A program made the translations under genes and the position numbers. The notes below the pieces were generated by a model, which was not told the DNA's origin, made no database searches, and worked only from the letters and a program-made list of their open reading frames with translations. DNA of 64,000 nucleotides from positions 124,001 to 188,000 of the forward strand of contig NZ_JACJPO010000056.1 of NCBI RefSeq assembly GCF_014696105.1. Reading direction: 5' to 3'. Of the stretch, positions 995 to 25,489 are shown piece by piece; the first letter of the stretch is position 1, and each line of letters starts with the position of its first letter. This stretch comes from Microcoleus sp. FACHB-1515 (GTDB lineage: Bacteria > Cyanobacteriota > Cyanobacteriia > Elainellales > Elainellaceae).

Positions 995-1261
995 CTAATC
1001 GGTTGATTCTTCATCAGAGCGATCGTCTTCCTCAAATGTAATATCACTCAGATACAACCTGACAAAATCTCTTGCTGCTTGTCGATTAATTTTTTCTAAA
1101 GCAACAACAATATCCGCTACTGACTCAGCAACAGGATCTTGTGTTTCATTGAACCAATAGTGAATTTTAGAGCATCCAACGCCCATTGTTGTAGCAAGTT
1201 TGTTTTGATTAATTCCGTACTGCTGCATCACTTCACGGAGCGCCCTACCTGCCTTTCCCAT
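995..1261 (-). CDS. XRE-family helix-turn-helix protein
   Basis: 88 residues. The N-terminal 60 residues form a five-helix XRE/Cro-like DNA-binding domain (ALREVMQQYGINQNKLAT, then a recognition helix near VGCSKIHYWF). The C-terminus is acidic (EEDDRSDEEST). It is probably a small transcriptional regulator or the antitoxin-like half of a lost pair; no toxin gene adjoins it. It converges on the thioredoxin-like gene across a terminator. The target is unknown. Confidence 0.7.
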   Translation of the reverse strand: MGKAGRALREVMQQYGINQNKLATTMGVGCSKIHYWFNETQDPVAESVADIVVALEKINRQAARDFVRLYLSDITFEEDDRSDEESTD

Positions 1262-1381: not shown

Positions 1382-1603
1382 ATGGAGACAACCCACATTA
1401 TGACCTATCGCGATCGCTTACACTACTGGGCAGTCGTTCGATTTTTGCCGGATATGCAGCGCATTACAATCGCTCGATTTGCCAATCGAAGGGATACAGA
1501 CGGACATTTGCAGGCGTTTCGGCGGCTTTTACCGGATGCAAACGTGGCGATCGTTTTTGATCTCAACGATGGCCTCAAACCGGAGCAACGCGATCGAAAA
1601 TAG
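1382..1603 (+). CDS. Small conserved cyanobacterial protein, function unknown
   Basis: 73 residues from ATG 1382, or 67 from ATG 1400 (MTYRDRLHYWAVVRFLPDMQ), which is the likelier N-terminus by resemblance to other small cyanobacterial proteins I recall of the form MxYRDRLxPW...RFRxRxDAExHL. Basic and aromatic-rich, with no membrane segment. Its 3' end overlaps the convergent NYN gene by 29 bases. No function is known to me; the family identification is from memory, not a search. Confidence 0.6.
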   Translation: METTHIMTYRDRLHYWAVVRFLPDMQRITIARFANRRDTDGHLQAFRRLLPDANVAIVFDLNDGLKPEQRDRK

Positions 1604-2669
1604 AGGGTCTTAATTCGCTGGCAGTCACCAGTGGATGAATCGCCACATGACAGTCGGAATCGATGCTCATGACGCGAAACATTTCGCACGATCGCAAGAA
1701 TTTGGGAAAGTGTGAACCGAGTTTCCACGATCGCATAATTTCCGTTACACCAAAGCCATAGTGCTTTTGGAAATGGCTCGCGAGTGCTCCCACACTAACT
1801 GAACTGCCCGGTTTATGCGCCGTCAATGCGACTAGCAGCTTCGCCAATCGTTGCTCCAGTTCATCATGCGGATCAAACTTACCTGCACCTAATTCAAACA
1901 GTTGAATTCTGCCTGTTGTCCAGTCCGTCAGCCGAAACTGATGGCCGAATCGTCCCACCCCATGCACTTTCCAACCCTGCGATTGTAGTAGATTACAAAG
2001 CATAATCAAATGCCCATCGTTGGAGCAAACAAATACTTCTTTGGCGTGCGGATATTGCAGAAACAGCGAAGATCCGATCGCCGTCATTTGAATATCGGCA
2101 GCATTTTTTCCAGACGGCACGTGGATCATTTGATAGCCGCGATCGTGCAGGTCAATATCCTGCTTGCCCAATCCGCGCCAATTGGCAACCGCAACTTTTA
2201 CTCGAATTGGATAGGTTGAAAAGCTGCTCAGTGCTTGTTCTTCCAGCTGCTCAAGGCGAATATTTTCAACGTCCAGCAGCAGAATTGCGATCGGCTCTAA
2301 CTGGAGCAGGCGATCGTCAGAACGTGAGAAAAATTCCTGGTCAATTTGCTTCAATAAATCGCCGTAGCGAACAGATTGAAAGAAGCCATCGGTGCAAATT
2401 TGCTGCAAAAATTGCTTGAGCATCGCGGCGATCGAAGCGCAACGATGCATCTGCTCCAGGAGGTCTTGAAGCTGACAAACAAACATGATTTTGCACTGTG
2501 ACAGAGGCGACTGGCGATGTCGTTCGACGATCCATTCGGGCTGCTGCTGCTGAATTGAAACAAGGGTTTCGTAGACCATCAGACTAATTTTTTCAAATCG
2601 CTCGGATGGCTTAGGGGAAGGCAGGTTCGATCGCGGCAATCTAGACACAAATTTTAATATTCCAAACAA
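1575..2669 (-). CDS. NYN (PIN-like) domain protein with probable LOTUS/OST-HTH tail
   Basis: 364 residues from a TTG at 2669; a stop lies directly upstream, and the next ATG (2579) would remove a region that looks conserved. The NYN domain spans about 125-260, with acidic residues expected for a metal-dependent RNase: D133 in LLLDVENIR, D192 in KNAADIQM and D218 in CSNDGHL. Residues about 275-350 look like an OST-HTH/LOTUS RNA-binding winged helix. The family (LabA/NYN) acts on RNA or in regulation; the role here is inferred only. The N-terminal 120 residues are helical and unassigned. Confidence 0.75.
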   Translation of the reverse strand: MFGILKFVSRLPRSNLPSPKPSERFEKISLMVYETLVSIQQQQPEWIVERHRQSPLSQCKIMFVCQLQDLLEQMHRCASIAAMLKQFLQQICTDGFFQSVRYGDLLKQIDQEFFSRSDDRLLQLEPIAILLLDVENIRLEQLEEQALSSFSTYPIRVKVAVANWRGLGKQDIDLHDRGYQMIHVPSGKNAADIQMTAIGSSLFLQYPHAKEVFVCSNDGHLIMLCNLLQSQGWKVHGVGRFGHQFRLTDWTTGRIQLFELGAGKFDPHDELEQRLAKLLVALTAHKPGSSVSVGALASHFQKHYGFGVTEIMRSWKLGSHFPKFLRSCEMFRVMSIDSDCHVAIHPLVTASELRPSIFDRVAPV

Positions 2670-2973: not shown

Positions 2974-4749
2974 TTAATTCTCTAAAAAGGAGATCTGGCC
3001 TTCTCTTACCTTCTTTCTAAGAACTGCTTTAACTTTCACAGAAGTAAAATTTAGCCTAGCTGCTAAATCATCCAAATCTTTAAAGGGTCTCTCTTTTATC
3101 AACCTATCAAGGGTTGTTTTCTTCACACCCGTTCCTTTGAAGGCAATGATCAAAGCATCTTTATCAGCACTGTTAATGTTAGTAGAATCAGCGCTGTTAA
3201 TGCCAATACACAAATTCACTGTTTGACTGGTTGGCTGAGTGCTTTCGCTCTCTTCCTCTATGCCTTCACTCGATTTCTTATTCTTATCAACGACTTTATC
3301 CGATTGTAGAAACTTTATTCCTTTAAGCTCCAGCTTTCGCTGTAAAAGAGAAGGGCAAGATGGGGCAATCATAAAAGCAAGGTCGGGTGGAGTTTTACCA
3401 TCAGTTGAAGGTTTGAAGCTTACATCTTGTAGCCATCGATCGAATGTCTCCAAGTGACCGCTCAAAAGCTCATAGTTTTTAGCTTCGCCAAAACATCTAG
3501 CGACAGTAGAATTATTGTGTTTCAGTTCCACAAAACAATCGAAAGCATGACCTGAAAGTATGGTTGTAGTCGAAACATCAGATAAGCTGTATGAGCTTTT
3601 GTTCAAATAATCCTTCCAGTGCTGTTCACACTGCGCTTTCACTAGATCGCGGGCATTACCCTCAAAGCTCTTTTCTGGCTCTTCCGTGAAATATCTTTCG
3701 TATATCTCAAGTACCGCTGATGCATGAGCTTGACAAAATTTCCTTAAATTCTGAGCAGGATTCAACGGTATGCTCTGAATTTCTTGCCAAGCAACATCAA
3801 AGTTTTTGTATCCTCCAAACGCTTTTTCTATACGGTCATCGATTTTATTCTTAATCATTCCAAACTCGTTACCGTATCCTTTATTCAAGTTTATAACTTG
3901 ATGACCAACAAGACTTTCAATGACTGAGCCTTCAGCAATAAAGCTGCCTACATTCTCTGATGTTCCTACTAAATAGATGAGGAGACGAATTTTCGAGTTA
4001 AATTCTTGCGCTACCCTCTTAACTAAAGCTGTGACTAAGGATCTCGTCTCCTGAAGCTGGCTGGGGAAGTTCTGTAACGAATCCAGTTCGTCGATTAAAT
4101 ATGCAAAAGTGAACCGAGGCTCTACCTTATGAATCTCCTCGATCGTCTCAAAGAAAAAGTCTTCAAAAACAACTTGACTTTTGCCAAAGTAGTTGCTGAA
4201 TTTAGATAAGAAGGGTGGAAATTTGCTCATTCCTACGAGCTGATGAACCTCTGCTTGCTCCAAATAATCGCTCAATATGCTTTTTGCTGTTTTTTGAACT
4301 TCTGATTCTGAACTGTGCAACAACTCCCAAAAAGTTTGAGCTAGCACATAACTGTACAGTTTCACACTAAAGCTTTGATTACCACCAGTCATCAGTAGAT
4401 CAGAAAGTTGAAAACGGTTAACAACGGAAAATCTTTGATAAGCCGATTTCGTTTTAGTTAGCCCATGCAGATAGGTGAGCAAAGAAGTTTTTCCGCTGCC
4501 AACTAAAGCAGCAACAAATCTAAAGGTGAAATACCCCTCATCAAAGCTATGCCTAAGATCGTCTTCCAACAACTCGGTCAAGTTGCTTATCCTTCTTCTA
4601 GACAAGCTCTGCGCTGTTGACCCCTCGCCGTCTGATCCTGGCGCTCTGATAGTACGTTCAATCCAGATGTCTTCGATTAAACCTTCTCCCGCTTTTACCC
4701 GTTGAAGAAAGTCTTTGATAAATTTTTTCTTTCCTGCGTCTTCAGGCAT
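2974..4749 (-). CDS. P-loop ATPase with PD-(D/E)XK-like region and C-terminal helix-hairpin-helix
   Basis: 591 residues, ATG start three bases after the stop of the upstream gene. Walker A is VGSGKTSL (83-90) and Walker B is AYLIDELDSL (216-225); LLIYLVGTSENV (257-268) fits a sensor-1 strand, so the core is an AAA/STAND-type ATPase. Residues about 395-485 contain FDCFVEL (403-409) and CFGEAK (419-424), an arrangement compatible with a PD-(D/E)XK nuclease core (D404, E422, K424). A low-complexity linker (490-515) leads to a ComEA-like helix-hairpin-helix (about 516-582), a DNA-binding module. A DNA-acting ATPase/nuclease, probably defence-related, is inferred; I do not recognise a named family. 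Confidence 0.7.
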   Translation of the reverse strand: MPEDAGKKKFIKDFLQRVKAGEGLIEDIWIERTIRAPGSDGEGSTAQSLSRRRISNLTELLEDDLRHSFDEGYFTFRFVAALVGSGKTSLLTYLHGLTKTKSAYQRFSVVNRFQLSDLLMTGGNQSFSVKLYSYVLAQTFWELLHSSESEVQKTAKSILSDYLEQAEVHQLVGMSKFPPFLSKFSNYFGKSQVVFEDFFFETIEEIHKVEPRFTFAYLIDELDSLQNFPSQLQETRSLVTALVKRVAQEFNSKIRLLIYLVGTSENVGSFIAEGSVIESLVGHQVINLNKGYGNEFGMIKNKIDDRIEKAFGGYKNFDVAWQEIQSIPLNPAQNLRKFCQAHASAVLEIYERYFTEEPEKSFEGNARDLVKAQCEQHWKDYLNKSSYSLSDVSTTTILSGHAFDCFVELKHNNSTVARCFGEAKNYELLSGHLETFDRWLQDVSFKPSTDGKTPPDLAFMIAPSCPSLLQRKLELKGIKFLQSDKVVDKNKKSSEGIEEESESTQPTSQTVNLCIGINSADSTNINSADKDALIIAFKGTGVKKTTLDRLIKERPFKDLDDLAARLNFTSVKVKAVLRKKVREGQISFLEN

Positions 4750-4752
4750 GGT

Positions 4753-5352
4753 TTATTCTACCCATTGAATCAGTTCGTTATCTTTCTCAATCACGGAGAA
4801 AATCTTGCCGTTTGATTTGAGCAGTTCAAAGTTTTGGATCAGTTTTTCTTCAGAAATAGAGGTTGCATCCATAAATTTCTGGCAAAGCTCTTTGCTGTGA
4901 ATTGCAACAACACCTCGAAGCTCTTGGCGCTTTCGCTCCTCAAAATACAGTTGCTTAAACTTCTGCTCAAACTCGGCAAATGACATTTCCTGTTGAGATT
5001 TAGAAGCGGGGGAATCTTGAGAAGTTTCTTTGATGCAGGCTAGCAAGGTATTCAGCACTTTTTGACCTTTGGAAGAATCAAACTGATAAGTAGTCACAGC
5101 AAGACTGCTAGCAAGCGCTTTTTTTCCCTGTGGTGTGACGGAAAAACGTCCTTCTCTTTTTGTCGGTTTCCCTTCCTTATCTACTTGCAAAATTAATTCC
5201 TGAGTTTGTAAAGCAGTACAGATCTCCTGTGCTTGCTTCTGCCATTCACTCGGTAGATGAGATTTTACAGTGCCTTTCGTTACTGTACCCCTCTCCGAGT
5301 AAGAATCGGCATAGAGCAGATAGAGCATTTGTTCCGTCGTAAGTTCAGCCAT
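4753..5352 (-). CDS. Winged-helix-like protein, first gene of the ATPase operon
   Basis: 199 residues with an ATG preceded by a perfect AGGAGG (5358-5363), the strongest ribosome-binding site in this region. The first 90 residues look like a winged helix (helices around TEQMLYLLYADSY and QEICTALQTQELIL, then a beta-wing near GRFSVTPQGKKAL). The second half is helical and charged (EFEQKFKQLYFEERKRQE) with another possible helical DNA/protein-binding segment at the end. It is 3 bases from the ATPase gene, so the two are almost certainly cotranscribed and act together. A sensor, adaptor or regulator role is a guess. Confidence 0.65.
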   Translation of the reverse strand: MAELTTEQMLYLLYADSYSERGTVTKGTVKSHLPSEWQKQAQEICTALQTQELILQVDKEGKPTKREGRFSVTPQGKKALASSLAVTTYQFDSSKGQKVLNTLLACIKETSQDSPASKSQQEMSFAEFEQKFKQLYFEERKRQELRGVVAIHSKELCQKFMDATSISEEKLIQNFELLKSNGKIFSVIEKDNELIQWVE

Positions 5353-5449
5353 ATTAGCCTCCTGATTAGTTGTAGCTTTTCATATCAGAAAGTAGCAAGG
5401 GGTGCAGCGATCGCCACACCCCCTTAAGAATTGCCTGAAGCTGTTTGTA

Positions 5450-21360: not shown

Positions 21361-22590
21361 ATGCTGCCCAGCGAATTATTAATCAGTCGGCACAGCGGCG
21401 AGGAACTGACGCCGAAGCGGTTGGCGATTGCGCCTCACAATCTCGAAATGGCCGAAGAACTCATTCGCCTGTTTGCTGCCGCAAGGGGGACAACGCAGGG
21501 CGAACTGAATCGGCAACTGCTGGAGCTTGAAGGCGAAGACACTGACTATCGCATCAAGCGCGGACTTGCTCATTTGCTGAAGGCCGAGGCGTTCAGTACG
21601 TTTGAGGTCGTGAGTCCGCTAGAGCCGCAGTTGTTGCGATCGCGCGTCTTTGCCCTTGCTGCCCAGTCTGCGCCGTTGCCACAAACCGCTCCCAACACGC
21701 TTGACGCTCTGGCCGATCATCTCAGTTCCGAACTGGGCTACGAAGTTTTTCCCGACCAGATTCGCTGCGGACTTTATGCCGACTTGCAGGAAAATCGCAT
21801 TCTGACGCAGTTCGATGCGCCCACACCTGAAGCCCTCCTGCACCGCTACAATTTGTCGCAAGTTCAAGGCGTTTTCTACCGCGCCAGCCACATTTTGATC
21901 AACGCGCACCGCAACGATCCGGGTGAGTATAAGCTGCTGTTTCGCTACCTGAAGCTGTTCGGCCTGATGACCTACATCGAAGGCGACGCCGATCACGGCT
22001 TTACGATTACGATCGACGGTCCCACCAGCCTTTTCAAGCCCAGCACCCGCTACGGACTCGACATCGCCAAATTGATCCCCGCGCTGTTGCACGTGACGCG
22101 CTGGAGCCTCAAAGCCGATTTACACATCAAAGACAACTACAGCAACAAAGATAAAACGCGCCGCTTCAGCCTCAATTCCGACTGTGGCCTCGTCTCGCAC
22201 TATCCACCCGGAAAGCCCTACGACAGCATGTTAGAAGCTTCATTTGCCGATCGCTGGCCGACGACGAGCGACTGGCAGCTAGAGCGCGAGGTGGATCTGA
22301 TTCCGATTCCCGGCAGCGTCATGATCCCGGACTTTCGACTCGTTCACGCAGACGGACGATCGTTCCTGCTCGAAATTGTCGGCTATTGGCGACCGGAATA
22401 TTTGCGGAAGAAATTCTTTCAAGTCCAACAGTCGGGACGCGACGACATTATTTTGGCAATTAGCGATCGCCTCAACCTTGAAAAAGCCGGAGTCAAAGTC
22501 AACGAAACGCCTGCTCGCGTCGTCTGGTTCAAAGACAAGCTTTCTCCCAAAGCCGTCCTATCCATCCTCGAAGCACAATCCACGCCTTAA
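21361..22590 (+). CDS. DUF790 family protein (Bax1-like nuclease)
   Basis: 409 residues. The whole length resembles DUF790 proteins, whose archaeal member Bax1 is an endonuclease that works with the XPB helicase. N-terminal LPSELLISRHSGEELTPKRL is typical, and the C-terminal part carries a PD-(D/E)XK-type arrangement: a conserved IPDFRL strand and FLLEIVGYWRPEYLRKK with the catalytic-type E. DNA repair is the likely context. It overlaps the convergent gene by four bases. An XPB-like helicase is not in the window. Confidence 0.8.
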   Translation: MLPSELLISRHSGEELTPKRLAIAPHNLEMAEELIRLFAAARGTTQGELNRQLLELEGEDTDYRIKRGLAHLLKAEAFSTFEVVSPLEPQLLRSRVFALAAQSAPLPQTAPNTLDALADHLSSELGYEVFPDQIRCGLYADLQENRILTQFDAPTPEALLHRYNLSQVQGVFYRASHILINAHRNDPGEYKLLFRYLKLFGLMTYIEGDADHGFTITIDGPTSLFKPSTRYGLDIAKLIPALLHVTRWSLKADLHIKDNYSNKDKTRRFSLNSDCGLVSHYPPGKPYDSMLEASFADRWPTTSDWQLEREVDLIPIPGSVMIPDFRLVHADGRSFLLEIVGYWRPEYLRKKFFQVQQSGRDDIILAISDRLNLEKAGVKVNETPARVVWFKDKLSPKAVLSILEAQSTP

Positions 22591-23936
22591 TTGCCTCTTA
22601 GCATTGCCGACCAATAAGAAACGCCGTGTTTGCCAAAGTGAATGCTGGCAACAATCATCCAGTGTTCTAAACATTCAACCAGCCAGTTGACGCCCTGACT
22701 ATCTTGCATTTCATATTCTCGAAACAAAGCCGCAAATCGTTCTGCGAGGTGCGATCGAATCGCGTCCAAATTCGGATCAATTCCTGCCTCAGAAGCAAGC
22801 GGTGAGTTGCCGTTGTGACACACTAAAACGATTTTGAGCAGCAGTCCGACCGTCAGCATCGTCCCCAAATTAGCCGTCAAATCAAGCAGCTTCACGTGAC
22901 CGTCGATGCGATCGCGCGGCGGCTCTAGCAGCACATCCAGCAGATGCGTACAAGTTTGCACTCGTAAACTCACGTTTGGCGGCTGATTGTCATGTTGGGG
23001 CAGCGCAGTTTGTAGCTGTTGATGCAGCCAGCGACCAAAGTGGTGATCGGCATAATCGTAATCCGGACGGCTATGGGGATTGTGCATCCGAAAGGCTTGG
23101 GTGGCAAACGCGCAAAGCTCTTGGTGAAGCTGCGCTTTGAACGCACGATGATTGGGAAGCTGGTGCGATCGCAACACAAGCTGACGCGCCGCTTCGTGAT
23201 AGCTCATCGCTCCAACGCCTTCATAGCTGAAGTGCCGCAGCGCTCGATCGACTTCTGCCGTGTCGAGCAGCGTGGGATTTTCGGGTAGCGTTTGCGATCG
23301 ATGCCGATGTCCAGACATCTTTCGCAAGCCATAGCGCCACAGCATCTCTTCAATTTCCTGTTCGCGATTTTGCTGATGCTGATGCACGGCATCTCGTCCG
23401 CCTTCGCTGCTGTCAAACTCCAACAGATAGTGCGGGTAAAGCGGCGGAAAACGGCTGATTAATTCGCGCAGCGGACGAGTTTTGCGGTTTTGTTTGGTGT
23501 CGTGCAGATTTTTGCTGGCCGAAGCGCGTCGCTGCAACACTTGATGCTGACTGCTTTGGACAAATTGCTGCACCAGTTCGTGTAGCCGCTGCACCGAAGC
23601 TGCATCATTGGCGCGTGGCGTTTCTTGAAATAGTGCAATTAGCCGTTCTGTTGCTTCTCCCCCATTGGGCAAATAGCTCCAATAGTTGATCAAGATGTAG
23701 CAGCAGCGGTTGAGAATCGCGCTGAAGCGGCGATCTGCCCAACGACAATTGGCAAGACGATGAACGGCCTGCTGAATCTCGTGTTTTTGATAGCCGCTGC
23801 CGTGAATAAACAAATGACGGTAACGATCGATCAGTTGTGAGCAAGATTCAGCTTGACGAACGAGTTGCAGGTGATTGAACAGCAGTTTTTCATCCGCTTC
23901 AAAATCGGCATACGAATAGCTTGACCGCATGGACAT
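22587..23936 (-). CDS. Conserved cyanobacterial hypothetical protein
   Basis: 449 residues, soluble, helical, unusually rich in His, Gln and Arg (for example QHQQNREQEIEEMLWRYG). No catalytic motif or membrane helix is evident. A linker around 145-180 is basic. It has two ATGs at the start (MSMRS); the first is used here. It converges on the DUF790 gene with a 4-base overlap and is followed upstream by a short degenerate repeat region (GTGACAACGGCA twice near 24010-24050). I do not recognise its function. Confidence 0.6.
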   Translation of the reverse strand: MSMRSSYSYADFEADEKLLFNHLQLVRQAESCSQLIDRYRHLFIHGSGYQKHEIQQAVHRLANCRWADRRFSAILNRCCYILINYWSYLPNGGEATERLIALFQETPRANDAASVQRLHELVQQFVQSSQHQVLQRRASASKNLHDTKQNRKTRPLRELISRFPPLYPHYLLEFDSSEGGRDAVHQHQQNREQEIEEMLWRYGLRKMSGHRHRSQTLPENPTLLDTAEVDRALRHFSYEGVGAMSYHEAARQLVLRSHQLPNHRAFKAQLHQELCAFATQAFRMHNPHSRPDYDYADHHFGRWLHQQLQTALPQHDNQPPNVSLRVQTCTHLLDVLLEPPRDRIDGHVKLLDLTANLGTMLTVGLLLKIVLVCHNGNSPLASEAGIDPNLDAIRSHLAERFAALFREYEMQDSQGVNWLVECLEHWMIVASIHFGKHGVSYWSAMLRGN

Positions 23937-24178
23937 GAAAAGATGCCTACTTGGGATACACCACCAACGAAGAGGAACAGCGACTCAACAACAGCAAAAG
24001 CGATTCAGTGACAACGGCAAGTATCGACAGCAAGTGACAACGGCAATTAGCAACGGCCAGATATCCGAAAGAACTTGGTTTTTCAGGAAGATTTCGGAAA
24101 ATTCTACCGTGAGGATAAAATTTCCTACTTGTTAGCATAGGACACTTACCGAACTGGCTTGAAGAATTTCAGCAATCT

Positions 24179-25489
24179 TTAACTCACTTCACTTCCATCA
24201 AGCAAATAGCGTCTGAGCAGTCGCGTTAAACCATAATTTGCTTCATCAATTTCCAGCAGCGATCGCCTGCGGAGTGAATTCAAAGCGGCTCGTAATTGGC
24301 GCGATCGATTAGCGGTTTGAATCTCGCTAAACGTGGCAGGTTCATGTTCGGCCAAATAGTTCACCACCTGTCGTTCCAGCGGCGACAAGCGAGCGAATTG
24401 GGTTTCAATTTGCGATCGCGCATGGTCTAACAGCACTTCTTCTTGCGACTCTTCGAGATATTGGGCAATATCGCCACCATAGAAATCACGAATGAAAGCA
24501 GCAACTTCATTCAGCGCGTAAGGATTGCCATCATACAGCCGCATTAATGTCCACCAGTCGCCATCGCTGCCGCTGAAACTGCCTTTGTGGTTGAACACCG
24601 TGCGGACGCTGCGATCGCCCAATCCTCGAACCGGAAAAGACTGAACCGCAGCAGGCATTTGTTCTTTGAGCGCGGCAATTTCTTTGGGTTCTTCGCGACT
24701 TGTGAGAATGAAGCAGCTTTGATGCATCGTGTGGCCGATTTCGCTGAACAGTTGACCATATTCTTCATAGCCGTCTAGGTATGCACCATCATGAACGCCG
24801 CCTTGCAACAGCGCTTCAAAACCGTCTAAAACAATTAAACAGCGACGATCGCGCAATTGGTCGCGCAGTCGCTTGGCTGGACGATCGCTTAAAACCTCCT
24901 GCAAATCCGCAATCAGCGCGTCCATCGTGGGTCGCTGGTGAACGATCGATCGCCAAATGCACACCTGAAACTGATCCCAAACTGTTTCCCCCAGTTTTGC
25001 CGCCAGTGCTGTTTTGCCCACACCGCCAATGCCATACAGCGTCAGCAGCCGACAACCGCGCAGGCGAATTTGTCGCGCAAGCTGATTTAAGTCAGAATTG
25101 CGCCCCACAAACAGCGGCACATCCGGCACAAATCGATACCAATCTTCGCGATCGATTTCCAGTTCACTGCGATTTTCTGAGGGATTTGCTGAAGTTATGC
25201 TGTTCAAATCATTCGGATGCATTGCTTTCCAAGCGCGATCGATCAACCCCTGCAAAGTGTTCTTTTTGACAGGTTCACCCAGCACTTGAGAAAGTTTTTT
25301 CCGCAGTTTAGCCGCCACATTGCGTTCAAGATGTTCAAGGCTAGTTCGATTTTTGCAGGTTTGATAAATCTCTTGATAAGAATCACCGTTCCAAGCACCC
25401 TTGAAAACAATACGCTCTAAGTCGCTGAGGCGGAGGTTTTGCTGGGCAAGCAGCGATTCAACGAATTCCAAAGCTTCGTCGGCAGTCAT
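24179..25489 (-). CDS. NB-ARC/STAND ATPase with vMAP-type N-terminal helical domain
   Basis: 436 residues. The first 85 residues (ALEFVESLLAQQNLRLSDLE, then a helix-turn-helix-like GDSYQEIYQTCKNRT) match the N-terminal domain found before many cyanobacterial STAND ATPases. The NB-ARC part follows: VGRNSDLNQLARQI, Walker A YGIGGVGKTALAAKL, Walker B RRCLIVLDGFEAL, FILTSREEP (sensor 1), and a winged helix near the end with RQVVNYLAEHEPATFSEI. Full-length relatives carry WD40 or TPR sensors after this point; here the protein stops. It may be a regulatory or defence switch lacking its sensor. Confidence 0.8.
   Translation of the reverse strand: MTADEALEFVESLLAQQNLRLSDLERIVFKGAWNGDSYQEIYQTCKNRTSLEHLERNVAAKLRKKLSQVLGEPVKKNTLQGLIDRAWKAMHPNDLNSITSANPSENRSELEIDREDWYRFVPDVPLFVGRNSDLNQLARQIRLRGCRLLTLYGIGGVGKTALAAKLGETVWDQFQVCIWRSIVHQRPTMDALIADLQEVLSDRPAKRLRDQLRDRRCLIVLDGFEALLQGGVHDGAYLDGYEEYGQLFSEIGHTMHQSCFILTSREEPKEIAALKEQMPAAVQSFPVRGLGDRSVRTVFNHKGSFSGSDGDWWTLMRLYDGNPYALNEVAAFIRDFYGGDIAQYLEESQEEVLLDHARSQIETQFARLSPLERQVVNYLAEHEPATFSEIQTANRSRQLRAALNSLRRRSLLEIDEANYGLTRLLRRYLLDGSEVS

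Follow-up and report, generated by a model that had tools for sequence, protein, structure and literature searches.

A probable mobile two-gene anti-invader system of cyanobacteria built on an ORC/BrxC-like ATPase

The gene pair B-A, located in the window (the whole stretch of 64,000 nucleotides that was analysed), probably forms a mobile two-gene anti-invader (conflict, or immune) system, whose ORC/BrxC-like ATPase would license an effector that can be exchanged. The scatter of the pair among genomes, the discord between its phylogeny and that of RecA, the exchange of the nuclease for TIR and of the helix-hairpin-helix (HhH) for WD40 repeats, and a changing AAA+ core together point to a conflict system. 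The case for defence is built on patchiness, horizontal transfer and the exchange of effectors and sensors, rather than on a defence-island setting. The features of the pair and its immediate neighbours are given in Table 1.

Table 1. Positions, in the window, of genes A and B, of their domains and of the neighbouring genes.
Feature	Coordinates	Strand	Description	Basis
Gene A	2974..4749	-	591 aa; AAA+ ATPase, PD-(D/E)XK-like nuclease, HhH	ORF, alignments, AF2
A, AAA+ ATPase with lid	3685..4581	-	residues 57-355; ORC/Cdc6-TnsC-BrxC-like	fold comparison, Foldseek
A, helical insert (strand 2 to Walker B)	4123..4371	-	residues 127-209; candidate sensor region	identity, local DNA divergence
A, PD-(D/E)XK-like nuclease core	3292..3612	-	residues 380-486; D404, E422, K424	strand/helix order, triad
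A, ComEA-like HhH	3004..3180	-	residues 524-582	sub-threshold Pfam HhH/T2SSK matches, AF2 helices 527-582
Gene B	4753..5352	-	199 aa; two winged helices linked by helices	ORF, AF2, fold comparison
B, winged helix 1	5083..5352	-	residues 1-90	AF2 secondary structure, fold comparison
B, winged helix 2	4756..4911	-	residues ~148-199; conserved I-Q-W-V-E tail	AF2 secondary structure, conservation
AGGAGG ribosome-binding site of B	5358..5363	-	CCTCCT on the + strand just before the ATG of B	sequence
Neighbour NYN gene	1575-2669		C-terminal extension	Pfam NYN above cut-off
Neighbour small HTH gene	995-1261		HTH matches all sub-threshold	

The gene pair and its proteins

An earlier, sequence-only reading of this DNA had described two tightly coupled open reading frames, and both were recovered, in the order B then A, with 3 nt between the stop of B and the start of A. 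They are kept together in all of the 26 relatives found, in which B lies directly upstream of A on the same strand, the spacing being again 3 nt in 17 and ranging from -13 to +16 nt in the other nine. The AGGAGG reported ahead of B was likewise found, and GAGG-like sites precede B in most of the relatives. A is present as a single copy in the genome of the window. In four close pairs, dN/dS ranged from 0.11 to 0.43 for A and B, and these are therefore genes under selection rather than chance open reading frames.

The AF2 model of B (mean pLDDT 83.7) places two long helices between two winged helices; the description of B as a winged-helix protein thus stands, the count being two rather than the one first proposed. 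The first of them resembles the winged helices of MarR/RosR/Rio2-type proteins (Z ~10-11 in the fold comparison). This likeness to MarR-type repressors would suit a regulator of DNA modification or partition, in which B acts as a transcription factor and the nuclease of A has a structural role, but such a regulator is very improbable, as the catalytic triad is kept in 25 of the 26 A proteins, being lost only alongside the gain of TIR, and the Walker motifs are almost invariant.

In A, the P-loop ATPase previously proposed from VGSGKTSL and LIDELDSL, with K87 and E221, is well supported. Walker A (GSGKT) corresponds to residues 84-88 and Walker B (LIDELD) to residues 218-223; G84, G86, K87, T88, D220 and D223 are invariant across the 24 aligned A proteins, while position 221 carries E in 23 of them and D in the remaining one. 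In the AF2 model (mean pLDDT 59.9), a AAA+ core bears a helical insert as well as a lid. Among solved structures, this predicted AAA+ module comes closest to Cdc6/Orc1 2qby (VIA Z 13.6), and TnsC and BrxC score ~11-12. At the profile level, the Pfam family BrxC_BrxD reached its cut-off in a single protein (L080), five of the 26 A proteins matching it at E<1 (best 7.6e-5). Mean pairwise identity is highest in the N-terminal tail (56%) and the nuclease region (55%), and the helical insert, at 32%, is the least conserved of the structured regions.

The region after the ATPase was assigned earlier to a PD-(D/E)XK core on the basis of D404 and E422-A-K424, and here the motif and the order of the strands agree, with low AF2 confidence in this part of the protein. 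The model presents a helix (365-383), three strands (388-396, 403-411 and 414-422) and a second helix (426-442), with D404 opening strand 2 and E422-A-K424 closing strand 3. The triad fits this superfamily, and the arrangement may correspond to its alpha-beta-beta-beta-alpha-beta core, in a model whose pLDDT is ~38-64 in the nuclease region and from which the last strand is absent. Neither sequence nor profile comparison linked this region to a known nuclease. The triad is intact in all but one of the A proteins (23 of the 24 in the alignment, with one broken).

The ComEA-like HhH, also foreseen in the sequence-only reading, is supported by the matches and helices listed in Table 1, and the linker that precedes it is very variable in length. 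The HhH part of the A profile cross-matches the HhH of PLD-type proteins. Weak genome matches limited to the HhH (frames of 545-568 aa) were rejected as A proteins, since the three that were read are, by eye, PLD-like proteins ending in an HhH. PLD-like proteins (by eye) whose C-terminal HhH is ComEA-like were recovered in this way in L034, L038 and L065.

Distribution, transfer and domain exchange

The pair had been proposed for a search in other genomes, and profile searches in cyanobacterial genomes retrieved the 26 relatives of A, all cyanobacterial; a scan of genome contigs with exact 8-residue patterns gave matches in cyanobacteria only. Full-length A was found in 7 of 386 genomes of a phylum-wide sample, in 10 of 390 genomes of the class and in 17 of 293 genomes of one other order, that is, in ~2-6% of the sampled genomes, which is at odds with a housekeeping family common to all cyanobacteria. 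Its distribution is patchy even inside genera (one of seven and one of three genomes in two of them). In the sample of the order of the window (36 genomes, all of its family), there is one other full copy, and a third genome holds a C-terminal remnant. Degraded, truncated copies occur in G207, G447 and G437. No copy was found in phage records, plasmid records or viral-contig collections. All 25 same-family genomes compared encode ctaE, and at the loci examined in them neither B nor A lies beside this gene; the NYN gene of the window is also absent from these ctaE loci.

The pairwise identities of A correlate poorly with those of RecA (r = 0.17) and better with those of B (r = 0.64); RecA was usable for 20 of the 24 genomes, the motif search having overlooked the other four. 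The genome of the window and a genome of the same family (G467) have RecA proteins that are 84% identical and A proteins that are 39% identical, while the A of the window is 69% identical to that of a genome from another family (G255). AU tests, which rest on quick trees of A, reject same-family pairs as clades in the A tree (G000 with G467, p 8e-90; G078 with G153, p 2e-49; and a further pair, p 1e-6). The A tree contradicts RecA, indicating that the system has been swapped between distant lineages.

The domains of A have also been exchanged. In L078 (genome G655), the triad positions are occupied by K, G and R, the sole broken triad among the 26 A proteins, and a C-terminal TIR_2 domain is present above the cut-off (E 2.1e-17), with the AAA+ module, the HhH and B all kept. 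This protein sits on a long branch of the A tree, and its sequence suggests that the loss of the nuclease went together with the acquisition of a different enzyme, of a type usual among immune effectors. In L075 (G686), WD40 repeats stand where the HhH would be and the triad is kept. The TIR and WD40 variants were found in one genome each.

The changing AAA+ core is best seen between the close relatives L015 and L017, whose DNA is 95-98% identical in B and ~91-95% in the nuclease region but 68-78% in the AAA+ core, with dS at 0.35 in A against 0.05 in B. The divergence is sharp and local (L015, 4421-8900, compared with L017), as expected if the AAA+ core were being exchanged or were diversifying.

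These patterns also bear on a role as an accessory of DNA repair, recombination or uptake, in which an ORC/Cdc6-like ATPase, helped by B and the HhH, would load on DNA that is damaged or entering the cell, leaving the nuclease to trim it. A DNA-binding AAA+ module, two winged helices and a ComEA-like HhH would suit such an accessory, and many neighbours of the pair are ordinary chromosomal genes. Nevertheless, this role is unlikely for genes that are rare, patchy inside genera, discordant with RecA and sometimes degraded, and in which one lineage lost the nuclease along with the appearance of TIR, a domain that does not repair DNA.

Known systems and a related three-gene operon

No named system with this order of domains was known to the sequence-only reading, and none was matched in the databases and literature searched. 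A and B have no Pfam or NCBIfam family above cut-off, no PADLOC-DB 2023 match at E up to 1 and no PHROGs match at E up to 0.01, and their profiles gave only chance matches against PDB sequences. No description of the pair was found in the literature searches, which missed most subscription papers.

In a survey of BREX (PMC12839542), whose main text mentions neither cyanobacteria nor HhH, TIR or WD40, BrxC is an ORC/Cdc6-clade AAA+ ATPase followed by a wHTH. A resembles BrxC in the ATPase clade that its predicted fold suggests, in a few Pfam BrxC_BrxD matches at or below cut-off and in the link between winged helices and ATPase. In contrast, A has ~590 aa against 1200-1300 aa for BrxC, its nuclease and HhH are fused to the ATPase, and the winged helices belong to a separate protein, B. 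The B-A unit comprises two genes only, flanked by cox genes, the NYN gene and the small HTH gene, and includes neither PglZ nor the adenine methyltransferase of BREX; PglZ, methyltransferase and BrxA/B are absent from the window. The Orc1/Cdc6 initiators share the predicted AAA+ fold with A but carry their winged helix in cis at the C-terminus, where A instead continues with a beta-rich core and the HhH, its winged helices being provided by B.

A P-loop ATPase followed on one chain by a C-terminal PD-(D/E)XK domain (DUF234/DUF4143 types) is found in the archaeal-type ATPase_2 proteins (PF01637). This order is shared with A, yet the Pfam matches of the A proteins to ATPase_2 remain below cut-off, and to our knowledge neither a B-like partner nor an HhH accompanies the ATPase_2/DUF234/DUF4143 families.

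The B profile also recovered a distant winged-helix family in many genomes, and all 16 of the loci fetched encode an operon of a winged-helix protein, a AAA+ ATPase (~620 aa) and a protein joining DUF1802 to an Mrr-like PD-(D/E)XK nuclease with a conserved GGxGGxD...ECK (L189-L204; another lies at L017:1466-5727). In some loci, a second ATPase gene is close by. No description of this operon was found in the literature searched. It occurs in roughly a sixth of the sampled cyanobacteria and is commoner than B-A. B aligns with its first protein over 162 columns, most of the length of B (hhalign E 2.9e-15), which identifies the two, at the profile level, as distant homologues. The ATPases are weakly alike (global hhalign E 1.8e-5, prob 55), and no homology was found by hhalign between the nuclease of A and the Mrr-like nuclease. 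Therefore, the order of winged-helix protein, ATPase and nuclease is shared by both systems, whereas the nucleases, which are Mrr-like and on a separate gene in the three-gene operon, may have had a separate origin. The idea that the C-terminal part of the ATPase of that operon is a dead copy of the nuclease of A was also considered and gained no support, hhalign detecting no homology between them. No separate DUF1802-nuclease gene lies next to A in the window, and in the genome of the window DUF1802 is confined to a 198-aa frame that lacks the nuclease part.

Proposed mechanism and genomic neighbourhoods

The account that we propose for this probable conflict system, which infers that DNA is cut, what triggers the cutting, what B does and that the pair serves in defence, would run as follows. 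B would bind DNA through its two winged helices, serve as an adaptor of A, or both, and A would assemble on DNA in an ATP-dependent manner via its ORC/TnsC/BrxC-like AAA+ module, with the HhH gripping the DNA. Once a feature linked to an invader is recognised, probably via the fast-changing helical insert, the PD-(D/E)XK nuclease would be released and would then cut DNA, either that of the invader or, if the response is abortive, that of the cell. At least one lineage has lost the active site of the nuclease, and the TIR domain added there is likely the new effector. It may be, at slightly less than even odds, that this represents an undescribed kind of prokaryotic immune system, in which an ORC/BrxC-type AAA+ sensor and a dual winged-helix partner license interchangeable effectors, either a PD-(D/E)XK nuclease or a TIR domain, and the C-terminal binding domain is likewise interchangeable, being an HhH in some proteins and WD40 in others. 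Specificity would reside in the fast-evolving helical insert, and the three-gene operon common in cyanobacteria would be a sister form. If so, the ATPase clade of replication initiators and transposons (ORC, TnsC and BrxC) would be tied to an immune module of just two genes whose effector can be swapped; being far simpler than BREX, such a module would be easier to dissect. Attention would also be drawn to the commoner operon of winged-helix protein, ATPase and DUF1802-nuclease, in a phylum where immune systems other than CRISPR seem to have been little charted.

The setting resembling a defence island, suggested earlier from the XRE and NYN genes of the window, was not borne out. The copies lie mostly amid ordinary genes (cox, rpsB-tsf, mnmE, groESL and others, as read from the sequence), the copy of the window coming after a cox operon; around other copies, neither the XRE nor the NYN gene was seen. 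Among the best 25 families listed, PADLOC matches showed no clear excess in 138 neighbours compared with 133 control genes, and those in the control genes were mostly kinase-like. We counted against the immune reading these ordinary neighbours, the lack of PADLOC excess, the lack of phage, plasmid or viral copies, the single-genome TIR and WD40 variants and the low-confidence nuclease fold. In its favor, we counted a Type II R-M system adjoining the pair in L017, a C5 methylase adjoining it in L021, and the three-gene operon with a B homologue in 16 of 16 loci. A C5 methylase also adjoins the three-gene set of L189.

A transposon-like or addiction element, in which a TnsC-like ATPase and a TnsA-like PD-(D/E)XK nuclease would move or maintain the cassette, agrees with TnsC being among the best folds for A, with the scattered sites and absence of fixed neighbours, and with a telomere resolvase beside one copy. 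TnsA of Tn7 is a PD-(D/E)XK nuclease. However, A differs from the Tn7 proteins in that its nuclease is fused to the TnsC-like ATPase and its partner is a double winged-helix protein, with neither a transposase nor TnsB seen; no conserved transposase or third gene was present among the neighbours listed, and the TIR and WD40 variants do not fit transposition, making such an element quite unlikely. The resolvase, of the ResT/TelK type (PF16684, E 4.7e-27; L019:1641-3563, genome G078), is encoded just downstream of B-A, a hint that the replicon could be a linear plasmid or resemble a prophage.

In two loci from different families (L020 and L046), genes that by eye are prolyl-oligopeptidase-like adjoin the pair, which has opposite orientations in the two; these neighbours possibly mark a preferred insertion site. 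Similarly, mnmE-like genes (by eye) lie within ~4 kb of the pair in L021 and L077, which also belong to different families. Elsewhere in the window (21361-25489), a DUF790 gene (E 1e-152) is followed by a gene without assignment and then by a gene for an NB-ARC/NACHT-type NTPase.
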